Shown: in pieces, positions 60,715 to 62,835 of the stretch | Layout of the letters: each line of letters begins with the position of its first letter | Position numbering within the stretch: position 1 is the first letter of the stretch | Origin: Myxococcota bacterium | GTDB taxonomy: Bacteria; Myxococcota_A; UBA9160; UBA4427 | Direction: 5' to 3' | Length of the DNA: 64,000 bases | Assembly: GCA_028278345.1 (NCBI GenBank) | Contig: JANQEL010000235.1 | Coordinates: forward strand, 62,001 to 126,000 | Program-made: the position numbers and the translations under genes | Notes under the pieces: model-generated | The model's input: only the letters and a program-made list of their open reading frames with translations | Databases searched by the model: none | What the model was told of the DNA's origin: nothing

Positions 60715-61488
60715 TCAGGCGTCGCTGGTGAGTTCGGAAGAGGCGGCTTCCTCGTGTTCCTTCGCCTGCTTCTGACGCCCGACGAGGAAGGCCGCGCCGA
60801 CGCCGAGCAGGTAGAGCACGAGCATCGGGACCGCGAGGAAGAACTGGCTCACGACATCCGGCGGCGTCAGCACGGCGGCGAGGATGAAGACCACGAGCAC
60901 CATGTAGGGCGTGAAGGAGAGCATCTGTCTCGCCGTCACGATCCCCGCCATGGCGAGGAAGAAGACCAGCAGCGGCAGCTCGAAGGCCACGCCGAAGGCG
61001 AGGAACAAGCGCGTGGTCAGCGAGAAGACCTCCTTCATCGTCCACGCCGAAACCACGAACTCGTTGGTGAAGCCGCTGAAGAAGTCGAAGATGATCGGGA
61101 AGACGATCGAGTAGCCGAAGACGGCGCCGCCCGCGAAGAGCAGCGTCGAGCTGAATACGAAGGGGATGACGAAGCGCTTCTCGCCCTCGTAGAGCCCAGG
61201 CGCCACGAAGGCCCACATCTGCCAGAAGGTCATCGGCAGGGAGAAGATGAAGCCCGCGAGCAGGGCGCACTTGATGTAGGTGAAGAAGATCTCGGTCGGC
61301 GCGATCGATTGCAGCGAGGCTTCGTCGCCGCCGAGGGCATCGAGAGCCGGTGCGAGCAGGAAGGCGAAGATGTCCTCCGCCCAAGCGTAGGACGCCGCCG
61401 CCGCGATGAACCAGGTGCCGACCATCCAGGCGATGCGCGAACGCAACTCGGCCAGGTGATCGGTGATGGGCAGTTCGACGTCAGTCAC
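60715..61488 (-). CDS. tatC: Sec-independent protein translocase TatC
   Basis: ITDHLAELRSRIAWMVGTWFIAAAASY; FIFSLPMTFWQMWAFVAPGLYEGEKRFV; FELPLLVFFLAMAG. Confidence 0.95.
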   Translation of the reverse strand: MTDVELPITDHLAELRSRIAWMVGTWFIAAAASYAWAEDIFAFLLAPALDALGGDEASLQSIAPTEIFFTYIKCALLAGFIFSLPMTFWQMWAFVAPGLYEGEKRFVIPFVFSSTLLFAGGAVFGYSIVFPIIFDFFSGFTNEFVVSAWTMKEVFSLTTRLFLAFGVAFELPLLVFFLAMAGIVTARQMLSFTPYMVLVVFILAAVLTPPDVVSQFFLAVPMLVLYLLGVGAAFLVGRQKQAKEHEEAASSELTSDA

Positions 61489-61990
61489 CTGGGGTTTCCG
61501 GTTGCTTGGGCTTCGGGGGCTCGCCGGTTTCCTGCGTGGCCGCCGGCCCCTCGCTGGGCAGCGGCATTTGATCGGGCCGCGGCTCTTGATTCGTCTGTGG
61601 CGCTTGATCTGGCCGCGGCGCTTCTTCTACTCGCGGAGCGGGCGGGCTGGTGTCGACGGGGACCGACTCGGAAGAGCTGTCGGTGTGGGATTCGTCGTCG
61701 ACGGCCTCGCCAGCCGCTGCTTCTGGCTTTTCGTCCTTCTCGCCGTTCTTCTTCTCGAGTTTTTTCTTCGGCTCGTCGGTGAGGCCCGCCTGGGCGGGGC
61801 CCGGAGGCCGTTCGATCTTGTGGTCGGGCAGGTCCATGTCGATCGAGCGACGCAGCTCGTTCGAAGCCCGGCGGAACTCCGCCATCCCGCGCCCGAGGGT
61901 GCGCGCCAGCTCGGGGAGCTTCTTCGGCCCCATGATGAGCAGGGCCAGCACGAGTACGACGGCGAATTCGACGGGTCCGATCCCAAACAT
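61481..61990 (-). CDS. tatB: Twin-arginine translocase subunit TatB
   Basis: MFGIGPVEFAVVLVLALLIMGPKKLPELARTLGRGMAEFRRASNELRRSI; overlaps tatC start. Confidence 0.92.
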   Translation of the reverse strand: MFGIGPVEFAVVLVLALLIMGPKKLPELARTLGRGMAEFRRASNELRRSIDMDLPDHKIERPPGPAQAGLTDEPKKKLEKKNGEKDEKPEAAAGEAVDDESHTDSSSESVPVDTSPPAPRVEEAPRPDQAPQTNQEPRPDQMPLPSEGPAATQETGEPPKPKQPETPGD

Positions 61991-62016
61991 TGCGGCGCAG
62001 TCTAGCCTCGGCGGCG

Positions 62017-62183
62017 CCAGCAGTCCGTTGAAAAACCCTTCGGTCGCCATCCGCAGCGCTTCGGCCCGATCTCTGCGTTGCGAAGCCGCGGCCGTAGCTA
62101 CGGCTACGCCCGCAATTTCGCGCCTTGATCTCGAACCGAATCACTTCGGCTGGCTCGGTCAGGGTTCTTCAAAGGACTGCTGG
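62017..62183. mobile_element. MITE-like imperfect palindromic repeat, ~23-nt terminal inverted repeats
   Basis: Left arm CCAGCAGTCCGTTGAAAAACCCTT; right arm AGGGTTCTTCAAAGGACTGCTGG is its near reverse complement. Internal 14-bp palindrome GCCGTAGCTACGGC. Confidence 0.6.
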
Positions 62184-62207
62184 GGGTGAAAGGGGCCCCA
62201 GAATAAA

Positions 62208-62367
62208 CTGAGGGCCAGCAGCGACCCCCCCGGATTCAACGCTGCCGGCCCTCGTCGTGACCTTGGGAGCCCGCGACCACCCCCCCGGATTCAAAAGTCG
62301 CGGGCTCCCTCTTTGAAAGTCGGGAGCCGGCGGCACCCCCCCGAATAACCACCGGCCCCCTTTTCTT
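62208..62367 (+). ncRNA. Candidate structured small RNA: three tandem hairpins with identical C7 loops, ending in a U-tract
   Basis: HP1 GGGCCaGCAGCG/CGCTGCcGGCCC (62212-62251); HP2 perfect 13-bp GGGAGCCCGCGAC/GTCGCGGGCTCCC (62265-62309); HP3 GGGaGCCGGcGG/CCaCCGGCCCC (62322-62359) followed by TTTTCTT. Each loop begins ACCCCCCCG. Confidence 0.7.
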
Positions 62368-62445
62368 ACCGCTTCGCCAACGCGAGTCGTTTCGGTCCCC
62401 CTGTTCGCGGCTGGTGGCCGCGCAACATCTTCTCTTCGAGCCGCG

Positions 62446-62835
62446 CTAGGCGCGGAAGCGTCGTCCTTGTTCGAGTCGCACGCGCAGCATGCGAGGCTTG
62501 CTCTCGCGAACACACGCGAGGCCCAGCTGGAAGCGGCCGGTCGCCGTTTCGTTGCACCACACCACGCGGGCCACCGCGTCGCGACATTCCTGTCCGTGCA
62601 GGCCGCGCAGTGTCACGCGCAGCAGTGCGCCCACTTCGTGTGCTTCGTTGGCGATGAAGCAGAGGCCGCTCTGCGATTCGTTCACGAGCAGCCCGAGCTG
62701 CGCGCCGCCTTCGGCGCTCACGCGCGGAAACTCGCTGTAGTCGAGCAGGCGCAGCCCCTCGCGTCGCACCTCGCACCGCACGTTCGTGGGCGCTTCGTGC
62801 TGGATGTCTTCGATCCGGTGGGTTGCGCTGTGCAT
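62446..62835 (-). CDS. PilZ domain-containing protein
   Basis: NVRCEVRREGLRLLDYSEFPRVSAEGGAQLGLLVNESQSGLCFIANEAHEVGALLRVTLRG...ARVVWCNETATGRFQLGLACV. Confidence 0.7.
   Translation of the reverse strand: MHSATHRIEDIQHEAPTNVRCEVRREGLRLLDYSEFPRVSAEGGAQLGLLVNESQSGLCFIANEAHEVGALLRVTLRGLHGQECRDAVARVVWCNETATGRFQLGLACVRESKPRMLRVRLEQGRRFRA

Follow-up and report, generated by a model that had tools for sequence, protein, structure and literature searches.

Three tandem hairpins between the pilZ and tatA genes of a Myxococcota bacterium are a real structured RNA element, previously unlisted and, as judged from comparative sequence analysis, conserved in one family of uncultured bacteria. They lie in a stretch of 64,000 nucleotides that was analysed as a whole (hereafter the window). 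Structure, strand, place and family-wide conservation of the element are established from aligned relatives. In the repeated unit of about 44 nt, an outer stem of 12-17 bp leads through an A-rich, mainly 5' bulge into an apical helix of 4 bp, which is capped by a GGGG loop. Concerning its role, we tentatively favour, at a strength just short of probable, a 3'-end and insulator array of the pilZ mRNA, in which the GGGG tip and the bulge would be read by a putative factor.

The features of the locus are given below in window coordinates; R1 denotes a covariance model of the hairpin.

60715 to 61488, minus strand: tatC (Pfam PF00902, E 3.8e-65)
61481 to 61990, minus strand: tatA/B (Pfam PF02416, E 1.3e-14)
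61999 to 62004, minus strand: -10-like box TAGACT, 8 nt before the tatA ATG, with a GCTA box at the same place in family genomes
62017 to 62183, no strand assigned: MITE-like repeat of about 167 bp with 53-nt imperfect terminal inverted repeats, outside the RNA element
62210 to 62253, minus strand: hairpin c, last in the RNA, GAGGGCCGGCAGCG-TTGAATCCGGGGGGGT-CGCTGCTGGCCCTC, tip at 62224-62235, followed by the U-rich tail AGTTTATTCT (R1 match and terminator-like scan)
62265 to 62309, minus strand: hairpin b, GGGAGCCCGCGACT-TTTGAATCCGGGGGGGT-GGTCGCGGGCTCCC, tip AUCC[GGGG]GGGU at 62279-62290 (fold and R1 match)
62322 to 62360, minus strand: hairpin a, first in the RNA, GGGGGCCGGTGGT-TATTCGGGGGGGT-GCCGCCGGCTCCC, tip AUUC[GGGG]GGGU at 62335-62346 (fold and R1 match)
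62446 to 62835, minus strand: pilZ, PilZ-domain protein of 129 aa (Pfam PF07238, E 1.9e-7)

A sequence-only reading of 62208-62367 had described three tandem hairpins on the plus strand with loops of seven cytosines, the second of them on a perfect stem. The three hairpins are indeed present, their plus strand tips are ACCCCCCCGGATTCAA (twice) and ACCCCCCCGAATAA, and the second stem is perfect when read on that strand. Folding of 62160-62370 gave z = -4.3 on the minus strand, with none of 200 shuffles as stable, and z = -2.6 on the plus strand. Given conservation and covariation in relatives, the case for an array beyond chance is overwhelming. No Rfam 15 family reached its gathering score anywhere in the window.

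The wobble-pair asymmetry settles the strand of this hairpin found in raw sequence. A G.T position is a base pair only in the RNA of the strand so read. In 30 hairpins taken from raw upstream regions with a score symmetric for G.T and A.C, stem positions read in the pilZ/tatA sense comprised 354 Watson-Crick, 59 G.T and 9 A.C combinations, and the inner twelve pairs alone held 53 G.T vs. 3 A.C. The associated p of about 4e-10 assumes independent cells, which related sequences are not. The asymmetry recurs in alignment A1 (41 G.U vs. 4 A.C), at least one G.U occurs in each of its 29 hairpins, and 97.0% of cells pair on the minus strand vs. 86.9% on the plus strand. In the window itself, the A-C mismatches of the first and third hairpins on the plus strand become G.U pairs on the minus strand. 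Thus, the RNA is the minus strand, in the pilZ/tatA sense, and by this pairing evidence its tips are G-rich and not C-rich, the C7 loops being the complement of the G runs; the earlier assignment was to the wrong strand. R1 scores agree for hairpins a (45.1 bits on minus, 12.2 on plus), b (57.0 and 30.2) and c (56.7 and 23.7), a preference to be read in the light of R1 having been built on the minus strand. The plus strand terminator formerly placed after the third hairpin was not detected in a terminator-like scan, which instead found a terminator-like site on the minus strand after 62210-62253, with the tail AGTTTATTCT.

The array had also been likened to 6C RNA (RF01066), an actinobacterial RNA with C-rich loops (PMC9569102). 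Accordingly read, a plus strand transcript would act in trans through its C7 loops. A 6C match does exist on the plus strand; however, at 28.4 bits vs. a gathering score of 47 (E 0.088) it is sub-threshold, and 11 relatives, including ones with three tandem hairpins, yielded no 6C match at E<=3. Membership was rejected on score, strand, hairpin number and distribution. 6C has two stem-loops, each with at least six C in the loop, and is actinobacterial, whereas here the strand selected for pairing carries G runs, most genera have a single G-run hairpin and others two or three, and the named hairpin-carrying relatives have been deposited as Myxococcota, Myxococcales or Deltaproteobacteria MAGs. 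The non-actinobacterial host proposed earlier is thereby borne out. The two do share tandem hairpins tipped by a homopolymer run once the complementary strand is considered, but the window element is G-tipped on the opposite strand, has 1-3 units vs. two and belongs to another phylum. By analogy, its tips may be the functional part, as the loops are in 6C. With the G.U/A.C asymmetry also pointing to the other strand, a 6C-like RNA is highly improbable.

The same asymmetry bears on a palindrome acting at the DNA level, either REP/MITE-like or a cruciform protein site, with no RNA role. The hairpins are GC-rich intergenic inverted repeats and a real MITE adjoins them; yet DNA palindromes do not need strand-asymmetric wobble pairs, and the occurrence of one locus per genome leads us to reject a dispersed palindrome. 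We regard this explanation as scarcely credible.

Covariation was assessed on an alignment of 29 hairpins drawn from sequence upstream of tatA in 30 family genomes. Both-side changes occur at all 13 stem pairs, so that the stem covariation anticipated in the sequence-only reading is found, and standard pairs fill 97.0% of stem cells. None of 500 shuffles matches the alignment on any of five measures, and in slid registers pairing is lost (at most 58% paired). Compensatory changes across relatives, as expected of a structured RNA element, therefore lie in a defined helix, at 13/13 stem pairs and 3/4 apical pairs.

What had been described as a C7 loop is, on the minus strand, AYYC[GGGG]GGGU, a covarying 4-bp helix with an invariant GGGG cap and an A-rich 5' bulge beneath. 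Most hairpins fold with this AYYC/GGGU apical helix closed by GGGG and with a bulge of 3-5 nt, mainly on the 5' side. The GGGG is invariant across the 29 aligned hairpins, while tips such as GACU[GGGG]AGUC, AUCC[GGGG]GGAU, AACC[GGGG]GGUU and UCCU[GGGG]GGGA vary with pairing kept. Among nine distinct tips, all apical cells are paired and both-side changes affect three of the four pairs; this alignment (A4) is small, with a register picked by hand, and is supporting rather than independent evidence. The tips are conserved on unrelated stems, in line with the selection on them that had been suspected. The conserved GGGG tip and A-rich bulge predict a specific binding partner. A G-quadruplex was considered as the conserved function and rejected: one hairpin of G014 holds no G run beyond GGGG, its apical helix being preserved by compensatory changes, and just one unit is found in most genera.

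These tips also bear on whether the hairpins are just intrinsic terminators or RNase barriers of pilZ, with an incidental tip sequence. Like such terminators or 3'-UTR stabilising hairpins, they are strong, GC-rich and located right after the coding region, with a promoter-like box for tatA coming next, and in the window's genus a U-rich tail follows the last of them. However, a terminator needs no conserved GGGG, bulge or covarying apical helix, all of which the element has. Moreover, the U-tract after the last hairpin, seen for hairpin c, is present to a varying degree in genus mates and missing in most other genera (outside the window's genus, the 10 nt that follow contain 2.9 T on average); given such weak U-tails, termination is not general. 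Plain termination or protection is rather unlikely to be the whole explanation, and it is because a plain terminator can dispense with these tip features that a putative bound factor is added to the favoured 3'-end model.

The array occurs at the same place in three genus mates (DNA and pattern searches). More broadly, GC-rich hairpins that contain six to eight consecutive G lie upstream of tatA in most of 30 family genomes, on stems that differ in sequence. R1 finds the hairpin in 24 of the 30, covering 9 of 12 genera, always at one locus per genome with 1-3 copies, and the syntenic place within the family is between pilZ and tatA. R1 was built from the same family that it finds, which does not force the syntenic, single-locus result; the genomes searched are fragmented assemblies. 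At the threshold used, the window's genus has three copies and the rest of the family one, and folding reveals second, diverged hairpins in some genomes. Beyond the family, R1 gave four weak matches among 50 genomes of the order, none in the other order of the class and one weak match outside the family in a phylum sample of 379 genomes. These matches in other families are in G027, G068, G077, G053 and G129, and the three loci inspected (G077, G068 and G027) are at unrelated genes; a handful of E-values this weak is to be expected from a search of hundreds of genomes. The weak match in G042 falls on another hairpin that neighbours this one in the interval from pilZ to tatA.

Along the minus strand, pilZ is followed by the hairpins, then tatA and tatC, and hairpin a begins about 85 nt past the pilZ stop codon. 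We take PilZ to be a c-di-GMP receptor and the Tat genes to serve protein export; inspection of flanks in other family genomes showed a frame for an HD-GYP response regulator ahead of pilZ in at least three. The start of tatA was set at the ATG at 61990 (MFGIG...), which gives an N-terminus conserved in relatives, and not at the mechanical ORF start, 62050. About 8 nt before this ATG is an extended -10-like element, the GCTA box, mostly GCTAGnnT or GCTAAnnT (tatA loci L045-L074; 61988-62004 in the window), and no Shine-Dalgarno motif is obvious before tatA at these loci. The tatA gene would therefore have a leaderless promoter throughout the family. In model-positive genomes, at least 37 nt separate the end of the hairpins from the tatA ATG downstream.

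The hairpins most likely form the 3' UTR of pilZ. Indeed, the tatA -10-like box is downstream of them, they are absent from the two genomes in which no pilZ was found before tatA (G020 and G008), and in G010 the contig with pilZ carries two hairpins immediately after that gene, tatA being on a different contig. The same facts weigh on the idea that the hairpins serve as a 5' leader element for tatA-tatC on a pilZ-tatA read-through mRNA, regulating these genes in a riboswitch-like or protein-controlled manner. The hairpins do share the strand of tatA, and precede it wherever one contig holds both. However, the conserved box intervenes, tatA shows no obvious Shine-Dalgarno motif, the MITE puts another 167 bp between array and tatA in the window, and the hairpin is absent where tatA remains but pilZ is missing. 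A leader role is improbable, even if read-through from pilZ into tatA would be possible, the tatA promoter being predicted solely from the box.

In sister families f4 and f7 the box is present in most genomes, and several place a pilZ-like frame ahead of tatA, without a hairpin of this type. The hairpins are thus most likely an innovation of the window's family, its sister families appearing to keep pilZ-tatA and the box without them.

In the favoured model, the tandem hairpins of about 44 nt would sit at the 3' end of the minus strand pilZ transcript, form and protect that end, and insulate the separately started tatA-tatC genes from pilZ. The bulge and GGGG tip would dock a putative RNA-binding factor tuning 3'-end formation or stability. 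A single unit would suffice in most genera, with three in the window's genus. Counting against the model, pilZ is kept with a diverged loop in three genomes (G012, G016 and G007) and without the hairpin in G009, so that the hairpin is not strictly required.

The trans-acting regulator or protein sponge of the sequence-only reading can be recast on the minus strand as a small RNA, either derived from the 3' UTR or stand-alone, whose GGGG tips would pair with C-rich targets or titrate a protein. It would fit with the tips being conserved although their stems are unrelated, with the tandem repetition of the unit and with the stability of the compact array by itself. However, a simple sigma-70 scan found no promoter before the array, the element is always tied to pilZ at a single syntenic place, and four G in a small capped loop make a short seed. 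Nothing favours a free trans-acting RNA over a pilZ 3' UTR element, and we consider it unlikely, though deserving of attention. More speculative, and very doubtful, is a sensor or docking site of the c-di-GMP circuit, in which the GGGG-capped bulged hairpin would bind the PilZ protein, c-di-GMP or another factor. Were it true, second-messenger state would set the fate of the pilZ mRNA and read-through into the Tat export genes, making an autoregulatory 3'-UTR switch.

Comparative genomics pipelines have reported clade-specific candidates for structured RNA motifs (e.g., PMC8632094, PMC11109978). As in those candidates, a covarying intergenic hairpin lies beside a conserved gene; unlike them, the window element is most likely in a 3' UTR and not a 5' leader, and has a GGGG-capped, bulged tip. 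As a clade-specific structured RNA, the element is of a kind already known, and the motif itself is new. A search of open papers for a GGGG tetraloop motif or a pilZ/tatA RNA motif returned nothing relevant. To our knowledge, no described motif matches the GGGG-capped hairpin. With it, a poorly studied uncultured lineage gains a well-supported structured RNA motif that has no Rfam 15 match and is linked to a presumed c-di-GMP receptor gene at the pilZ/tat boundary.

Several minor observations concern the surroundings of the array. The MITE-like element, which parts the hairpins from the tatA promoter in the window, has about 26 copies in this genome (76-92% identical) and partial matches in relatives, and is missing at the same site in the nearest relative, G002. 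The interval between the pilZ stop and the first hairpin repeatedly contains a short G-rich motif, which is GGGGGACCGAAA or resembles it (62370-62400 in the window; also L046-L048, L070 and L072). At four loci of one genus (L051, L053, L056 and L057), a second hairpin, whose conserved interior is CATCGAATCGGGGGCGTGG or a near variant, is found between pilZ and the GGGG hairpin. Finally, a very similar hairpin, GGGGACCGGCAGCAGGAGGGGTCGCCGCCGGTCCCC, occurs in two genomes of a sister family (L098 and L099, near 1501-1540) beside a gene unrelated to pilZ/tatA.
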